From positions 1 to 7,790 of the forward strand of contig DATCKS010000401.1 in the NCBI GenBank assembly GCA_036562265.1: DNA of 7,790 bases, written 5' to 3'. Below are positions 1,714-7,790 of this stretch, one piece after another. The stretch's first letter is position 1. The number at the start of each line of letters is the position of its first letter. Made by a program: the position numbers and the translations under genes. The notes beneath the pieces are model-generated. The model saw nothing but the letters and a program-made list of their open reading frames with translations. It was not told the DNA's origin and ran no database searches. The stretch is from DASVDK01 sp036562265 [NCBI: Thermodesulfobacteriota bacterium] (GTDB lineage: Bacteria > DASVDK01).

Positions 1714-2118
1714 ATGCTCACCCGTCTGCACCACGTGGCGGTCCTGGTCCCCGATCTCGACGCCGCCCTCGTCCCCTTCCGCGACCTCCTCGGCCTTGCC
1801 GTCTCGCGCGTCGAGACGGTCGGCGAGCAGCGCGTCCGCGTCGCGTTCCTGCCGATCGGCGACACGCGCATCGAGCTGGTCGAGCCGCTCGAGAAGGACG
1901 GCAGCCTCGCTCGCTTCATCGAGCGGACCGGGGGCGGGGGCCTGCACCACGTCTGCTTCGAGGTGGAGGACATCGCGGCGGCCCTCGCCACGCTCAAGGC
2001 GCGGGGGGCGCGGTTGATCGACGAGACGGCGCGCCCCGGCGGCCACGGGATGCTCGTCGCCTTCGTGCACCCCTCGTCGACCTCGCGCGTCCTGGTCGAG
2101 CTCGCGCAGGAGCCTTGA
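1714..2118 (+). CDS. mce: Methylmalonyl-CoA epimerase (VOC superfamily)
   Basis: The enzyme interconverts the (S) and (R) epimers of methylmalonyl-CoA, supplying the B12-dependent methylmalonyl-CoA mutase in propionyl-CoA breakdown (or acting in the reverse route). The 134-residue protein is of typical family length and shows the two repeated beta-alpha-beta-beta-beta modules of the vicinal oxygen chelate fold. Likely metal ligands are His7 (LHHVAVLV), Glu54 (TRIELVEP), His79 (LHHVCFEV) and Glu129 (VLVELAQ). Other family signatures are RVAFLPIGDTRIELVEPL (42-59), the GGGGLHH turn (73-79) and RLIDETARPGGHG (100-112). One oddity is HPSSTSRVLVEL near the C-terminus, where most members have HPKSTGGVL-type sequence. 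The start is fixed by an in-frame TAG 12 bases upstream. GGAGG at 1692-1696 is 17 bases from the ATG, too far for a normal ribosome binding site. Its position just before the B12 uptake genes fits its pathway. Confidence 0.92.
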   Translation: MLTRLHHVAVLVPDLDAALVPFRDLLGLAVSRVETVGEQRVRVAFLPIGDTRIELVEPLEKDGSLARFIERTGGGGLHHVCFEVEDIAAALATLKARGARLIDETARPGGHGMLVAFVHPSSTSRVLVELAQEP

Positions 2119-2143
2119 CACCCCGCGCGGCGGGGCTTACCGT
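2115..2143 (+). promoter_or_regulatory. Candidate promoter of the btuFCD-like operon
   Basis: A perfect TTGACA (2115-2120) is followed after 17 bases by TACCGT (2138-2143), which keeps the most conserved T, A and final T of a -10 element. The -35 shares bases with the last codon and TGA stop of mce. Transcription would begin near 2150, just ahead of the cobalamin aptamer, exactly where a riboswitch leader should start. The spacer carries a GC-rich inverted repeat (2121-2135). The position makes the match more credible than the bases alone. Confidence 0.55.
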
Positions 2144-2159
2144 TTGAGCCACTTTCGTC

Positions 2160-2352
2160 GAACGCTGGCGCCCCCAAGGGAAGCGTGGTGAGAATCCACC
2201 GCTGCCCCGCAACTGTGATCGGCGACGAAACCCGCGAGCGCCACTGATCGGCACCCCGGCAGCCGAGGTCCGGGCCTCTCGACGGACCGAGCGCACGGGC
2301 GAGGATCGGGAAGGCGCGGGGAGTAGGACGACCCGAGAGCCAGGAGACCTGA
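2160..2352 (+). ncRNA. Cobalamin riboswitch 1 (aptamer), upstream of the btuF-like gene
   Basis: The adenosyl- or other cobalamin-binding aptamer is recognised from its conserved blocks in order: AAGGGAAGCGTGGTGAGAAT with closing CCACCGCTG (P3, from 2176), CCCGCAACTGTGA (2206-2218), CCACTGATCGG (2241-2251), GGGAAGG (2308-2314), AGTAGGACGACCCG (2322-2335) and the B12 box AGCCAGGAGACCTG (2338-2351). Closing pairs can be drawn between CTGGC (2165-2169) and GCCAG (2339-2343), and P5 between GGCG (2221-2224) and CGCC (2239-2242). It lies between the candidate promoter and the transport operon and so would reduce uptake gene expression when cobalamin is plentiful. The exact ends are approximate. 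Which cobalamin form it prefers cannot be read here. Confidence 0.95.
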
Positions 2353-2369
2353 AGGGCGCTCCCGATCGA

Positions 2370-2391
2370 TGACCTTTCGCGGGAAGGGTCA
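2370..2391 (+). promoter_or_regulatory. Ribosome-binding-site sequestering hairpin (P13) of riboswitch 1
   Basis: TGACCTTTC (2370-2378) pairs along its full length with GAAGGGTCA (2383-2391), one G-U included, around the loop GCGG. The 3' arm contains the purine-rich ribosome binding site and ends two bases before the GTG start at 2394. TCGCGGG in the loop and upper stem (2377-2383) is exactly complementary to CCCGCGA in aptamer loop L5 (2231-2237), the expected kissing-loop partner. Ligand-bound aptamer should therefore stabilise the hairpin and block translation. Confidence 0.8.
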
Positions 2392-2393
2392 CG

Positions 2394-3293
2394 GTGCGTG
2401 CTCTCGCTCTCGTCACGATCATCGGCGCCCTGGTCGGCCTGACGGCCGGCACGGCGCGGTCGGCGGTCCCGGCGGACGGCCGGGTGGTGGTCGACGACCT
2501 CGGCCGCGAGGTCTCCCTGGCCGCCGCGCCGAGGCGCATCGTCTCGCTCGCCCCGAACCTCACCGAGATCGTCTACGCCCTCGGGCTCGGCGACCGGCTC
2601 GTCGGCGTGACCGACTTCTGCGACTATCCCGCCGAGGTCTCGCGCGTGCCGCGGGTCGGGGGCGTGACGAGCCCGTCGGCGGAGCGGATCGTGTCCCTCC
2701 ACCCGGACCTGGTCCTCGCCACCACGGCCGGCAACGGTCGCGACGAGATCCTGGCGCTCGCGCGGCTCGGCCTGCCGGTCGTCGTGAGCGCGCCGCGCGA
2801 CGTCGACGCGGTCGCCCGCTCGTTCGAGCTGATCGGCCTGGCGGCCGGCGTACCGGACCGCGGCCGGGCGCTGGCGTCCGCCTTCCGCGACAGGATCGAC
2901 GCGGTGCGGCGTCGGGTCGCGGACCGACCCCGGCCGCGCACCCTCGTGGTGGTCTGGCCCGACCCGATCGTGGCGGCGGGGCCGTCGAGCTTCGTCGCGA
3001 GCCTCCTCGCGGTGGCCGGAGGGGTCAACGCGCTCTCGGGGCACGGGGGGCGGTTCACCGAGCAGTACCCGACGCTCGGGGTCGAGTCGGTCCTCGCCCT
3101 CGCCCCCGAGGCGATCGTCCTCGCCGCCTTTCCCGGCAAGACGATCGAGGCGCTCGATCGACTCCGCCGCTACCCGCAGCTTCCGGCCGTGCGCGACGGC
3201 CGCCTCGCCGCGATCCCGCAGGAGCTGCTGATCCGCCCGGGGCCCCGCCTGGCGCTTGCCGCCGAGGCGCTTGCCGAGGCGCTCCACCCGTGA
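2394..3293 (+). CDS. btuF: Cobalamin ABC transporter, periplasmic substrate-binding protein (BtuF-like)
   Basis: The 299-residue protein captures corrinoid in the periplasm and delivers it to the BtuCD-type importer. An N-terminal signal peptide is visible: positive MR, hydrophobic stretch to about residue 19, probable cleavage near 24-27. There is no lipobox cysteine, so it should be soluble. The body has the two-lobed class III binding fold of the BtuF/FecB group: DDLGREVSLAAAPRRIVSLAPNLTEIVYALGLGDRLVGVT (34-73), CDYP (76-79), ERIVSLHPDLVLAT (97-110) and a C-lobe with ESVLALAPEAIV (231-242). Glu97 and Glu231 sit where E. coli BtuF carries the two glutamates that dock on BtuC arginines. The start is a GTG whose ribosome binding site lies inside the riboswitch hairpin. 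Its stop overlaps the permease start. The cobalamin riboswitch upstream and the neighbours favour B12 over haem or siderophore as substrate. Confidence 0.9.
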   Translation: MRALALVTIIGALVGLTAGTARSAVPADGRVVVDDLGREVSLAAAPRRIVSLAPNLTEIVYALGLGDRLVGVTDFCDYPAEVSRVPRVGGVTSPSAERIVSLHPDLVLATTAGNGRDEILALARLGLPVVVSAPRDVDAVARSFELIGLAAGVPDRGRALASAFRDRIDAVRRRVADRPRPRTLVVVWPDPIVAAGPSSFVASLLAVAGGVNALSGHGGRFTEQYPTLGVESVLALAPEAIVLAAFPGKTIEALDRLRRYPQLPAVRDGRLAAIPQELLIRPGPRLALAAEALAEALHP

Positions 3294-4345
3294 CGGTCCT
3301 CGACCGCGCCGCGCCGATCGTCCGCCACCGCGGCCCGCTGCCGCTGCCGGCGGTGGGCCTCGCGGCGGCCGTCTGCCTGGTCGCCGCGCTCCTCGGGCTC
3401 GGCTACGGCGCATCCGACCTCGGGCCGATGGACGTCCTCGGCCTCGCCTGGCGCGCCGCCACGGGCCGGCCGGTCGACGCGACGACGGCGGCGATCGTCC
3501 TCGAGCTCAGGCTGCCCCGCGTGGTTGCCGCCATGCTCGTCGGCGCGGCGCTCGCCGCCTCGGGCGCGGTCTTCCAGGGGCTCCTCCGGAACCCCCTTGC
3601 CGACCCGTACGTGGTCGGCGTGTCGTCCGGCGCGGCCGCCGGCGCGGTCCTCGCGATCTGTCTCGGCGCGACCGGTCGCGTTCTCGGGCTGCCGGTCGTG
3701 CCGGCGTCGGCCTTCGCCGGCGGGCTTGCCGCCATCCTGGTGGTGGACCGGATCGCCCAGGCCGCCCCCGCCTCCCGGGCGCTCGGCACCGTGCTGGCCG
3801 GGGTCGTCCTCTCGTCGCTCGCGTCGGCCGTCATCATGCTGCTCATCACCGCCTCGCCCGACCCCTTCGTCCGCGGCTCGCTCGTCTGGCTCATGGGCGA
3901 CTTCGGCATGGTGACGCCCGACGGGCTGCCGGTCCTCGCCTTCGCGGTGGCGCTCGGGCTTGCCGGCGTCTACGCCGCCTCGCGCACGCTGAACCTGCTC
4001 GCCCTCGGCGACGAGGCGGCGCACGCCCTCGGCGTCGAGCCCGGCCCGGCGCGGCGGCGCCTCTTCGTGCTCGCCTCGCTCCTCACGGGCGTCGCCGTCG
4101 CCGCGGTCGGCGTCGTGAGCTTCGTCGGCCTGATCGTCCCCCACGCCGTGCGGTTCGTCCTCGGCGCCGACCACCGGCGCCTCGTGCCGTTCTCGGCCGC
4201 CTTCGGCGGGGCGTTCGTCGTGCTGGCCGATCTCGTGGCGCGCGTCGTCGCGGCTCCGGCGGAGCTGCCGATCGGCGCCGTCACCGCCCTCTGCGGCGCG
4301 CCCTTCTTCCTCTGGCTCCTCGTCAGGCGGCTGCCCCATGCGTGA
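3290..4345 (+). CDS. btuC: Cobalamin ABC transporter permease (BtuC-like, FecCD family)
   Basis: The inner-membrane channel subunit, expected to work as a homodimer with two BtuD-like ATPases. The 351-residue protein has many hydrophobic segments, consistent with about ten transmembrane helices. Family signatures are LRLPR (73-77), the QGLLRNPLADPYVVGVSSGA stretch (96-115), ALGDEAAHALGVEPG (238-252, the coupling-helix region that contacts the ATPase), VSFVGLIVPHAVRFVLG (276-292) and AELPIGAVTALCGAPFFLWLL (324-344). The start is the GTG at 3290, overlapping the btuF-like stop as GTGA (3290-3293). The same frame stays open back to 2369, but that stretch translates to low-complexity Arg/Gly/Pro sequence lying over btuF and was excluded. 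The 3' end overlaps the ATPase gene by eight bases. Regulation should follow riboswitch 1 through translational coupling. The FecCD fold also serves iron chelates; context sets the substrate. Confidence 0.9.
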   Translation: MTVLDRAAPIVRHRGPLPLPAVGLAAAVCLVAALLGLGYGASDLGPMDVLGLAWRAATGRPVDATTAAIVLELRLPRVVAAMLVGAALAASGAVFQGLLRNPLADPYVVGVSSGAAAGAVLAICLGATGRVLGLPVVPASAFAGGLAAILVVDRIAQAAPASRALGTVLAGVVLSSLASAVIMLLITASPDPFVRGSLVWLMGDFGMVTPDGLPVLAFAVALGLAGVYAASRTLNLLALGDEAAHALGVEPGPARRRLFVLASLLTGVAVAAVGVVSFVGLIVPHAVRFVLGADHRRLVPFSAAFGGAFVVLADLVARVVAAPAELPIGAVTALCGAPFFLWLLVRRLPHA

Positions 4346-5156
4346 GCCCGTCCTGGTGTTCGACGAGGTGCGCTTCCGCTACGGGCCGCGGATGCCCTGG
4401 GTCCTCGACGGCGTGTCGCTCGACGTGCGCGAGGGGGAGGCGCTCGGCCTCGTCGGTCCCAACGCCGCCGGCAAGACCACCGTCCTCAGGCTGGCCACCG
4501 GCTTCGTGCGCCCCACCGCCGGGACCGTTCGGCTCTTCGGCCGGCCGGTGGCGGAGTGGAGCCGGCGCGAGGCGGCGCGCCGCGTCGCCCTGGTGCCGCA
4601 GGAGGTGCCGATCGGGCTCCCCTTCCGGGCCGGCGAGGTGGTGCTGATGGGCCGCGCGCCGCACCTGTCGGGGCTCGGCTTCGAGGGCGAGGCCGACATC
4701 GCGGCCGCGGCGGCGGCCATGGCGCGGGCCGGCGTGCGGCACCTGGCCGACCGGCCGGTCGACGCCCTGTCGGGCGGCGAGCGGCGGCGCGTCCTCCTGG
4801 CCCGCGCCCTCGCGCAGGGCGCCCGGCTGCTCCTCCTCGACGAGCCGGCGTCGCACCTCGACCTCGGCCACCAGCACGCCGTGGTCGACCTGGTTCGGGA
4901 CCTCGCCGCCGAGGGCGTCGCCGTCGTCGCCGTCTGGCACGACCTCACCCTGGCGGCCGCGGCGAGCGACCGGCTGGCGCTGCTGTCGGGCGGTCGCATC
5001 GCCGCCGTAGGGAGTCCGGAGGCGGTCCTGACGCCAGAGATCGTCTCGGCCGCGTACGGGTGCGAGGTCCTCGTCGACCGGCATCCTCTGACCGGACGCC
5101 CGCGCGTGACGATCGCGGGCGCAACGAACGGGAGGGACACCGTGAGACGCGCGTGA
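4338..5156 (+). CDS. btuD: Cobalamin ABC transporter ATP-binding protein (BtuD-like)
   Basis: The cytoplasmic ATPase that drives import. The 272-residue protein has every ABC motif: Walker A GPNAAGKTT (40-48), Q-loop VPQE with Gln88, signature LSGGE (144-148), Walker B RLLLLDEP (163-170), D-loop SHLD (172-175) and H-loop His201 in VWHD. The C-terminal part (about 218-260), with GRIAAVGSPEAVLTPEIVSAAYGCEVLV, is characteristic of the importers of the FepC/BtuD group. The ATG at 4338 overlaps the permease stop by eight bases. It is the last gene of the first transport operon; a 364-base gap containing a second riboswitch follows. No key residue is missing. The protein family is certain; the corrinoid role comes from context. 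Confidence 0.92.
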   Translation: MREPVLVFDEVRFRYGPRMPWVLDGVSLDVREGEALGLVGPNAAGKTTVLRLATGFVRPTAGTVRLFGRPVAEWSRREAARRVALVPQEVPIGLPFRAGEVVLMGRAPHLSGLGFEGEADIAAAAAAMARAGVRHLADRPVDALSGGERRRVLLARALAQGARLLLLDEPASHLDLGHQHAVVDLVRDLAAEGVAVVAVWHDLTLAAAASDRLALLSGGRIAAVGSPEAVLTPEIVSAAYGCEVLVDRHPLTGRPRVTIAGATNGRDTVRRA

Positions 5157-5164
5157 CGAACCGT

Positions 5165-5233
5165 GCGGGATGCATCGGCGTCGCGGCGCTCGGGCCTTCG
5201 GCCCGGGGCCGCTGGCGCGGCCCGCATCTCCGC
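5165..5233 (+). repeat. Nested GC-rich inverted repeats downstream of the btuD-like gene
   Basis: CGGGCC (5191-5196) and GGCCCG (5200-5205) form a perfect 6-bp stem with a TTC loop. Outside it GCGGC (5183-5187) pairs with GCCGC (5208-5212), and further out GCGGGATGC (5165-5173) nearly pairs with GCATCTCCGC (5224-5233). The structure ends just before riboswitch 2. It could end or pause the btuFCD transcript, but no run of T follows, so a standard intrinsic terminator is not supported. No clear promoter for the next unit is visible here. Confidence 0.45.
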
Positions 5234-5467
5234 TAGTTGCCTGCGGCCGGGACAGGGAAGCCGGTGAGAGACCGGCGCTGACCCGCAACTGTGATCGGCG
5301 ACGACCCCCGCGAGGATCCACTGATCGGCACCCCGAAAGCCCAGGGTCCGGGCCCGTCTCGGAGCGAGGGTGGAGGGGGCGGGCGGCCACGTGAGCGACG
5401 CGCAACGGGCCCCCGCGGATGATCGGGAAGGAGCGGGCAGTAGGACGACCCGAGAGCCAGGAGACCT
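5234..5467 (+). ncRNA. Cobalamin riboswitch 2 (aptamer), upstream of the btuB-like gene
   Basis: The conserved cobalamin aptamer blocks appear in order: AGGGAAGCCGGTGAGAGACCGGCGCTG (split here: AGGGAA from 5254, P3 GCCGG/CCGGC), CCCGCAACTGTGATCGG (5282-5298), CCACTGATCGGCACCCC (5318-5334), GATCGGGAAGG (5421-5431), AGTAGGACGACCCG (5439-5452) and the B12 box AGCCAGGAGACCT (5455-5467). CCTG (5240-5243) can close with CAGG (5458-5461). It is longer than riboswitch 1 because of an enlarged peripheral arm: GGGCCCGT (5350-5357) pairs perfectly with ACGGGCCC (5405-5412). It should control the receptor and tonB-like gene in response to cobalamin. The 5' end is approximate. Whether it has its own promoter or is read through from btuD is not clear. 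Confidence 0.95.
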
Positions 5468-5493
5468 CCCCGCGCCGCATTTTGTGAGGCCGA

Positions 5494-5515
5494 CTTCCTT
5501 CGAGGGACGAGGAGG
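5494..5515 (+). promoter_or_regulatory. Ribosome-binding-site sequestering hairpin (P13) of riboswitch 2
   Basis: CTTCCTT (5494-5500) pairs with GAGGAGG (5509-5515), five Watson-Crick and two G-U pairs, leaving an 8-base loop CGAGGGAC. The 3' arm is the ribosome binding site GGAGG, five bases before the ATG at 5521. TCGAGGG (5500-5506) matches L5 CCCGCGA (5307-5313) at six of seven positions, with one G-A opposition. The design parallels riboswitch 1 but is less stable on paper. Confidence 0.6.
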
Positions 5516-5520
5516 GGCAC

Positions 5521-7425
5521 ATGCATCGACGACAGGGGAGAGCCGCGCTCGTGGCGGCCGCCGTGGCGGCCATCGTCGCGGGCGCCGCGGCAGGTCGTGC
5601 CGTGGCCGGCGAGGCCGAGGGCACGAGGGCTGGCGAGGAGGGCGCGGTGCTGCCGCCCGTGGTGGTGAGCGCCACGCGCGTGGAGCAGCCGGTGGAGGAG
5701 GTGGGGAGCGCCGTCACGGTGATCTCCGGCGAGGAACTCAGGCGGCGCGGCATCGACTTCGTCGCCGACGCCCTCGAAGAAGAGGTGCCGGGGCTCGCGG
5801 TGCCCAGGTCGGGCACGCGCGGCAAGACGACGTCCATCCACATCCGCGGTGCCGACTCCGAGCAGACGCTGGTGCTCGTCGACGGGGTCCGCATGAACCC
5901 GTCGGTCGGCGGCCGCTTCGAACTCGGCGCCTTCAGGACCGACGACATCGAGCGGATCGAAGTGATCCGCGGGCCGCAGAGCGTGCTCTACGGATCGGAC
6001 GCCATCGGCGGCGTCGTCAACATCATCACGCGCCGGGGCCGGGGGCCGCTCTCGGCGACCGCCTCCGTGGCGGGCGGCAACTACGACACGTACGAGGTCT
6101 CGGCCGGTCTCGCGGGCGGCGGTCGCCAGTTCGGCGGCTCGCTCGAGGTGTCCCGCTTCTCGACCGACAACCGGTTCCCGAACGACGACTTCGACGTGAA
6201 CACCGCCTCGGGCCGCCTCGACGGGCGGGTGGGCGAGCGGCTCACGCTCGGCCTCACGTTCCGGGCGAGCGACGCCGAGACCGGCGCGCCGGGGCAGGTG
6301 CGGATCTCCCCCAGCCTCGTCAACCGCCAGGAGGACGAGGTGTTCGTCGCCGGCGCGAGCGCCGAGCTTCGAACGACCGAGCGCTGGCGGCAACGGCTCG
6401 CGCTCGGCTACAACGACCAGGAGCTGCGGTTCCGGAGCGCGTCCGTCACCGACGTCACCGAGACCGATCTCCGGTCGGTCGAGTGGGTCCACACGGTGGA
6501 TCTGCCCTGGTCCCTTACCTGGCTCGTCGGCGGCGAGTACCGCGCGGAGGACGGGAAGACCTCGACCATCGACGCGACGCTCTACACGCGGGCGGCCTTC
6601 ACGCAGCTCCAGGCGACCGCCTTCGACGACCGGCTCTTCCTCACGGCCGGCGCACGCGTCGACGACGGCACGCAGTTCGACACCGAGGTGAGCCCCAAGG
6701 TGTCCGGCGCCCTGCTCGTGCACGAGACCGGGACGCGGCTGCACGCGAGCTGGGGGGAGGGGATCCGCGGGCCGACGCTCATCGACCTCTTCTCGCCCGG
6801 CTTCGACGTCGGGGGGGGCGTCATCCTCTTCCCCGGCAACCCCGACCTCAAGCCCGAGCGCTCGACCGGCTGGGACGTCGGCGTCGAGCAGCGGATCGGC
6901 GTCGTGACCGCGGACGTGACCTTCTTCCGCAACGACTTCCGCGACCTCATCGTCCTCGCGCCGACCACGCCCTTCGCGCCCGTCAACCTCGGCCGGGCCC
7001 ACAGCTACGGCGTCGAGTCGACGCTCGGCGTCCGGCCGGCGCGCTGGATCGACCTCGAGGCCGAGTACACCTACCTCGTCGCGCGCGACGACGTGACCGG
7101 CGACCTCCTCCTCAGGCGGCCGCGCAACAAGGCGAGCGTCGCCGCCACCGTGCGGCCGCTCGCGCACGCCTCGGCCACGGTGTCGTTGCTCTACGTGGGC
7201 GACCGGCGCGACAACACGTTCGAGGTGGGGAGCACGCCGCGGACGTTCAGCGGCTACACGCGGGTCGACCTCTCGGCCCGCTACCGGTTCCCGGACCTGG
7301 CCGGGTTCCGGGCGGTGGAACTCTTCGGTCGGGTCGAGAACCTCCTCGACCGCGAGTACGAGGAGGTCGCCGGCTTCCCGGCGCTCGGCATCAACGTCCT
7401 CGCCGGGGTGCGGGGAACGTTCTGA
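5521..7425 (+). CDS. btuB: TonB-dependent outer-membrane receptor for cobalamin (BtuB-like)
   Basis: The 634-residue protein, close to the 614 of E. coli BtuB, is a plugged beta-barrel that takes up corrinoids across the outer membrane using TonB energy. A signal peptide (1-29) ends in AVA. A TonB-box-like segment VLPPVVVSATRV (43-54) precedes the plug, which shows TVISGEELRRRGI (66-78), TTSIHIRGADSEQTLVLVDGVRMN (103-126), DDIERIEVIRGPQSVLYGSDAIGGVVNIIT (141-170). The barrel follows with many alternating amphipathic strands and closes with the C-terminal signature FGRVENLLDREYEEVAGFPALGINVLAGVRGTF, ending in the terminal Phe needed for outer-membrane assembly. The start is an ATG with GGAGG five bases upstream, inside the riboswitch hairpin. 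The next gene begins on its stop codon. The plug sequence and the cobalamin riboswitch together support B12; a relative binding other corrinoids is possible. Confidence 0.93.
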   Translation: MHRRQGRAALVAAAVAAIVAGAAAGRAVAGEAEGTRAGEEGAVLPPVVVSATRVEQPVEEVGSAVTVISGEELRRRGIDFVADALEEEVPGLAVPRSGTRGKTTSIHIRGADSEQTLVLVDGVRMNPSVGGRFELGAFRTDDIERIEVIRGPQSVLYGSDAIGGVVNIITRRGRGPLSATASVAGGNYDTYEVSAGLAGGGRQFGGSLEVSRFSTDNRFPNDDFDVNTASGRLDGRVGERLTLGLTFRASDAETGAPGQVRISPSLVNRQEDEVFVAGASAELRTTERWRQRLALGYNDQELRFRSASVTDVTETDLRSVEWVHTVDLPWSLTWLVGGEYRAEDGKTSTIDATLYTRAAFTQLQATAFDDRLFLTAGARVDDGTQFDTEVSPKVSGALLVHETGTRLHASWGEGIRGPTLIDLFSPGFDVGGGVILFPGNPDLKPERSTGWDVGVEQRIGVVTADVTFFRNDFRDLIVLAPTTPFAPVNLGRAHSYGVESTLGVRPARWIDLEAEYTYLVARDDVTGDLLLRRPRNKASVAATVRPLAHASATVSLLYVGDRRDNTFEVGSTPRTFSGYTRVDLSARYRFPDLAGFRAVELFGRVENLLDREYEEVAGFPALGINVLAGVRGTF

Positions 7426-7790
7426 TGAAGGGGGCGCTCCTCGCCTCGGCCGCGCTCCACGCCGCGGTCGTGGGGCTGGCGCTCGCGGCGGGCGGCGGCG
7501 CCCCGTCGCCGCCGCCGCTCCCCGGGGCGATCGAGGTGGTGCTCCACGACCCGGCGGCCTCCGCGACGAGCTCGCCGTCGCCCGGCCGGCCCTCGGCCGA
7601 CGCGGCGCCCCCGGCCGGGACCGGCGTCGCCCGGCGTGCGGACGCCCTCGCCGCGCGCGCCACCTCCTCGCAGGACCGCGCGCCCGCGCCGCGGGCACGC
7701 GCGCCGGCGACGCGCTCCGAGCCGCCTCCGCGCCGCGCGGCGCCGCGGCCGGCTCCGGCCGTCGATCCGCCGCCCCGCCCGGCGCCGGTC
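7425..7790 (+). CDS. tonB: TonB-family energy transducer, N-terminal part (runs off the window)
   Basis: The ATG at 7425 uses the last A of the receptor's TGA (TGATG), so the two are translationally coupled. The frame is open for 122 codons to the window edge. The N-terminus MKGALLASAALHAAVVGLALA is a single membrane anchor with Ser8 and His12 in the SxxxH spacing found in the TonB transmembrane helix (Ser16 and His20 in E. coli), which contacts ExbB/ExbD. From residue 27 on the chain is Pro/Ala/Arg-rich (SPPPLPGAIEVVLHDP, then PPPRRAAPRPAPAVDPPPRP), like the periplasm-spanning region of TonB, though with Arg rather than Lys/Glu between prolines. The C-terminal receptor-binding domain would lie beyond the window, so the assignment is not complete. 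It probably energises the neighbouring receptor. No exbB or exbD is present in the window. Confidence 0.8.
   Translation, partial: MKGALLASAALHAAVVGLALAAGGGAPSPPPLPGAIEVVLHDPAASATSSPSPGRPSADAAPPAGTGVARRADALAARATSSQDRAPAPRARAPATRSEPPPRRAAPRPAPAVDPPPRPAPV

Follow-up and report, generated by a model that had tools for sequence, protein, structure and literature searches.

A cobalamin riboswitch ahead of btuFCD-like genes, with a proposed five-base L5-L13 contact at the hairpin that carries the ribosome binding site

Through which of its bases might a cobalamin (vitamin B12) riboswitch control the B12-uptake genes that follow it? The question is raised by a 7,790-nucleotide stretch of a Thermodesulfobacteriota contig (DATCKS010000401.1), termed here the window, in which an original prediction, made from the letters alone, had recognized a cobalamin riboswitch (riboswitch 1) and read a full seven-base kissing-loop switch from it. 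The recognition is borne out: positions 2136-2370 are a cobalamin riboswitch of the ordinary type ahead of B12-uptake genes, matching the Rfam covariance model RF00174 at 73.7 bits against a gathering threshold of 31.5, with the B12 box and the CGGGAAGG motif present and genes of B12-transport type downstream (Table 1). We take it to be Cbl-I-like, and its ligand is presumably a corrinoid. Rfam aligns the basal helix, 2152-2156 with 2351-2355, only approximately.

Directly upstream of riboswitch 1 is a gene for methylmalonyl-CoA epimerase (1714-2118, above the NCBIfam cut-off), the partner of a B12-dependent mutase. The second riboswitch of the window has L5 ACCCG (5281-5285) and a hairpin at 5494-5515 whose loop includes CGAGGG (5501-5506) and whose 3′ arm carries the ribosome binding site GAGGAGG. 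An open frame that begins at ATG 7425 and is cut off by the end of the window (7425-7790) is proline- and alanine-rich and possibly TonB-like. The scans found no close relatives of the window; the best-scoring BtuF is 45% identical, and the best-scoring BtuC among the 80 loci listed is 44% identical.

Table 1. Features of riboswitch 1 and the genes behind it (window positions)
Feature	Positions	Strand	Basis or remark
Cobalamin riboswitch aptamer, RF00174	2136-2370	+	73.7 bits
Basal aptamer helix, 5′ strand CUUUC	2152-2156	+	Pairs GAAGG 2351-2355; sequence and constrained fold
Loop L5, CCCCGC; proposed kissing partner CCCGC 2206-2210	2205-2210	+	Rfam consensus, UCCCG consensus, permutation test
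Aptamer helix, 5′ strand CCCGCG 2231-2236 (‘L5’ of the original prediction, 2231-2237)	2231-2237	+	
Conserved aptamer motif CGGGAAGG	2307-2314	+	Rfam alignment, sequence
Aptamer helix, 3′ strand CGCGGG, pairs 2231-2236	2315-2320	+	Directly after CGGGAAGG; exact complement
B12 box AGCCAGGAGACC	2338-2349	+	Exact, read from sequence
GAAGGG, first copy; basal helix 3′ strand and possible anti-sequestor	2351-2356	+	Inference, constrained fold
P13 hairpin, nine pairs, loop GCGG 2379-2382; predicted to sequester ribosome binding site	2370-2391	+	
L13 kissing bases GCGGG; proposed partner of CCCGC 2206-2210	2379-2383	+	
Shine-Dalgarno-like AAGGG in P13 3′ arm	2384-2388	+	Sequence, inference; second GAAGGG copy is 2383-2388
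btuF-like periplasmic binding protein, GTG start, 299 residues	2394-3293	+	PF01497; below NCBIfam BtuF cut-off
btuC-like permease	3293-4345	+	PF01032; below NCBIfam BtuC cut-offs
btuD-like ATPase	4338-5156	+	Below NCBIfam cut-offs
Second cobalamin riboswitch, ahead of btuB-like gene	5226-5487	+	RF00174, 57 bits
btuB-like TonB-dependent receptor	5521-7425	+	Below TIGR01779 cut-off

Between aptamer and btuF-like gene stands the P13 hairpin. The original prediction had a hairpin at 2370-2391 with the ribosome binding site in its 3′ arm and the GTG start two bases past its end, and noted that a stem of seven pairs with an eight-base loop would remain once the top two pairs open; all of this is confirmed from the sequence. 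The GTG at 2394 is the first start of its frame, since an in-frame stop lies at 2370-2372. The folding energy of 2366-2395 is -15.2 kcal/mol (z -4.0), the P13 pairs have probabilities of 0.96-1 in the unconstrained ensemble, and 2384-2389 has a predicted unpaired probability of 0.0, with an opening cost of 10.4 kcal/mol. In such ensembles the ribosome binding site would be sequestered by or through P13.

The Rfam consensus has, after P4, the hairpin uGCCCCCGCa, which is window 2203-2211, and UCCCG is the consensus stated for L5 in PMC10653944 (section 6); for these reasons we place L5 of the window at CCCCG(C), 2205-2210. This loop of the P5 hairpin is of the NCCCG type and matches the P13 loop: its CCCGC 2206-2210 and GCGGG 2379-2383 are exact complements, giving five pairs, not seven. 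A five-base match in the true L5 slot occurs in 3.9% of shuffles. Neither the five- nor the seven-base match is strong on a single sequence, and the case therefore rests on relatives. The proposed L5 and helix layout is not the one preferred when the single sequence is folded by energy, L5 bases 2206-2208 being unpaired with a probability of just 0.07-0.09 in the unconstrained ensemble of the window alone.

Two sets of related riboswitches were used. For set 1, 135 of 157 candidates remained once a manually compiled list of permitted L5 5-mers had been applied and one row taken out by hand; 108 of them were non-redundant, and 101 of these have the CCACTG anchor; for set 2, 7 of 96 candidates were dropped and 10 were redundant, leaving 79. 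In the pooled 180 (relatedness not modelled), the L5 5-mer binds its own P13 loop at -3.81 kcal/mol against -3.47 when permuted (z -4.73, 0 of 10,000 permutations), and the seven-base L5 stretch (-5 to +1) likewise exceeds permutation (z -4.22, 0 of 10,000). Both stretches reach 1 of 10,000 in set 1; set 2 is weaker, at 134 of 10,000 for the 5-mer and 676 of 10,000 for the seven-base stretch, which is by itself not significant there. The set 2 p values for L5 also depend on filtering: 0.020 and 0.032 with a stricter filter (n = 50, 40 dropped) versus 0.068 and 0.013 with the corrected one (33 restored).

The last four L5 bases find an exact complement inside the predicted P13 loop in just 34 of 180 riboswitches, and the CCCGC-type five in 16. 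Some paired changes were picked out by eye: L5 CCAC with GUGG at the hairpin top (L194, L200, L204 and L206), L5 CGCG with loop CGCG (L051, L061 and L099), and L5 UCGCG with loop CGCGA (L255). Where L5 is of a rarer type, as in 23 rows of set 1, the next 110 bases never contain its exact five-base complement. L5 is nearly invariant, and covariation is therefore limited; within that limit L5 and L13 appear from these comparisons to covary in relatives, more weakly in set 2 alone. At L002 and other, mostly Nitrospira, loci, 17 riboswitch rows have L5 UGCCG, and no downstream hairpin was found to hold an exact five-base complement of it.

Other positions were covered by positional scans. With exact k-mers against all hairpin loops, L5 ranks first for 4-mers (z 3.4), and for 5-mers x -27, x 11, x -28 and x -13 rank above it; because the exact scan is noisy, duplex energies in loops of predicted folds were adopted. 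In set 1 (30 stretches, n = 108) the two lowest p values, 0.0015 and 0.004, belong to two L5 stretches; x -37 and x 26 are also below 0.05, and x -34 (z +2.9) and x 11 (z +2.3) deviate to the opposite side. In set 2 (n = 50) the lowest is x -7 (0.016), followed by x 41 (0.019), with x -34 and x -19 also below 0.05, x -4 not significant, and x 8 (z +2.5) and x -13 (z +2.0) on the other side. Since other stretches deviate in both scans, the permutations understate the scatter.

A collection of 27 leaders comprises 24 matches in 23 genomes (from a pattern search of 395 genomes), L114, and both riboswitches of the window; the pattern fixes L5 and stops one base short of the segment equivalent to 2231-2237. 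A GCGGG-bearing P13 is found in 17 of them. That L5 and L13 pair at five of five positions in all 17 is no evidence, as it is true by construction: L5 is fixed by the pattern and P13 was chosen for GCGGG. Such a P13 was not found in the other 10, where CGUGGG (L306, L307, L310 and L320) or CGAGGG (L315-L319) follows the B12 box, the tenth being riboswitch 2 of the window, which shares CGAGGG with L315-L319. CGUGGG in place of CGCGGG makes a G-U pair with L5.

Among the BtuF relatives, L188-L191, which score best, and L201, lower in the list, are 41-45% identical to the BtuF of the window, and P13 in their leaders is ACCUUUCGCGGG(A/C)GAAGGGU or GCCUUUCGCGGGAGAAGGGC. The P13 loop UUCGCGGG is common to the window and five btuF leaders. 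As in the window, the btuF-relative leaders L299, L300, L301, L302 and L305 (phylum group of G001) have L5 CCCCGC, loop UUCGCGGG and btuF downstream; two of these five (L299 and L301) have a terminator-like hairpin, whereas none was found in the window. In three of these five genomes the mechanically called btuF frames (loci L189, L191 and L188) begin roughly 14, 40 and 66 bases past P13, compared with 2 in the window.

We consider it probable that riboswitch 1 represses translation of btuFCD through an L5-L13 kiss at the P13 that buries the ribosome binding site. With corrinoid bound, L5 CCCGC would kiss L13 GCGGG at the top of P13, which needs just the C2378-G2383 pair opened, and the kiss would keep P13 closed and AAGGG 2384-2388 buried beside the GTG. 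Such kissing stabilizes P13 and the ribosome binding site hairpin in Escherichia coli btuB and env8 (PMC10653944). Without ligand P13 would yield to another fold, the likeliest being GAAGGG 2351-2356, released from the basal helix, with the anti-Shine-Dalgarno arm CCUUUC 2373-2378. GAAGGG occurs twice (2351-2356 and 2383-2388) and both copies can pair this arm, the first with six of six pairs, one of them G-U; the duplication is a possible anti-sequestor layout. GGAAGG 2309-2314 can also pair the same arm. In calculated stability the anti-sequestor falls short of P13, at -12.4 kcal/mol against -21.4 for the local fold and at -105.6 against -109.4 for the leader, so that the ON state described here is a proposal.

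One competitor is the seven-base version of the original prediction, in which CCCGCGA 2231-2237 is itself L5 and kisses TCGCGGG 2377-2383. The two are indeed exact complements, a longer match than the five-pair alternative, and when the window alone is folded without constraints, 2231-2236 shows no firm pairing with 2315-2320 (pair probabilities just 0.16-0.34), the energy fold putting 2226-2328 in a different register. We nevertheless regard this version as very unlikely. The Rfam alignment base-pairs 2231, 2233 and 2234, and the segment is one strand of a conserved aptamer helix. Among the 180 non-redundant riboswitches, its equivalent binds its own downstream strand far more strongly than permuted ones (z -16.1, 0 of 10,000), and the five pairs 2231-2235:2316-2320 are all standard in 25 of the 27 leaders, with compensatory types: the outermost is U-A in 17, C-G in 4, G-C in 4, A-U in 1 and U-C in 1, and the fourth is G-C in 20, U-A in 3, A-U in 2, C-G in 1 and U-G in 1. 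Against its own P13 loop the same segment has no excess match in the pooled 180 (z -0.71, 2,348 of 10,000; 665 in set 1 and 7,756 in set 2). These equivalents were placed by distance from CCACTG (n = 180) or GACGAA (27 leaders), so the register may be off by one or more bases. An exact seven-base match is found in 1 of 180, the window itself; among the 17 leaders with a GCGGG-bearing P13, seven of seven Watson-Crick pairs are again formed only in the window, and allowing G-U leaves 3, window included, without mismatch. In relatives L13 stays constant where the segment changes. Nor does the match stand out from chance: an exact 7-mer complement to loop stretch 2376-2385 arises in 23.5% of 5,000 dinucleotide shuffles of 2136-2369, and one to the whole hairpin in 37.8%. 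Conservation of the complementarity in homologous leaders, which the original prediction had named as its own test, thus goes against seven bases. What stands of its kissing control is a P13 carrying the ribosome binding site, L13 in the P13 loop and kissing as the likely control; the partner strand was wrong. The partner is likely L5, 25 bases upstream. The longer, wrong strand was picked because L5 2206-2210 and helix strand 2231-2235 both read CCCGC.

Two further alternatives were weighed. P13 might be so stable that the gene is always off, or switch only kinetically during transcription, with L5-L13 adding little; an over-stable P13 is reported to repress regardless of ligand (PMC10653944), and the pair probabilities and opening cost given above agree with this. 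But the loop sequence of L13 is met again in related leaders, and the P13 of the window, at -10.7 kcal/mol, is near the median of -9.85 among 34 hairpins complementary to the last four L5 bases (window included, some short or doubtful), so that its stability is not unusual; these energies ignore kissing and kinetics. We judge this alternative unlikely. Control of transcription by a terminator, rather than of translation, is more improbable still than the seven-base version. A simple search found terminator-like hairpins past the B12 box in 13 of 27 leaders, several of them weak, and one lies in L188 at 1384-1404, though shuffles of that stretch average 0.8; but there is no terminator-like site at window 2100-2500 and none in the 220 bases past either B12 box of the window, and the start codon follows P13 by two bases.

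With translational repression through the L5-L13 kiss as the preferred reading for the window, we tentatively suggest, at somewhat less than even chance, that P13, with its loop motif CGNGGG, acts as a portable module: one and the same kiss would drive an intrinsic terminator in several related btuF leaders and occlude the ribosome binding site directly in the window. If so, the output has been swapped while the sensor contact stayed fixed. Related leaders with nearly the same L13 hairpin and differing outputs could be used to ask how the sensor contact couples to termination or translation, and a base-level assignment is now at hand for testing a kissing-loop riboswitch.

Both outputs have known counterparts. 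The metE riboswitch of Priestia megaterium is transcriptional, with CCG of L5 and CGG of L13 as its working contact (PMC10653944, section 6). Its L5 is UCCCG where the window has CCCCG, and each has a complement in L13 with the core CCG/CGG; its platform is a terminator, of which none was found in the window. The btuB riboswitch of E. coli is translational and uses L5-L13 kissing (PMC10653944, PMC5359240). A difference is that in the window the ribosome binding site lies inside the 3′ arm of P13 itself; in broad layout the window shares with E. coli btuB a cobalamin aptamer, an L5-L13 contact of five contiguous pairs (proposed for the window), a link between P13 and the ribosome binding site, and a B12 uptake gene.
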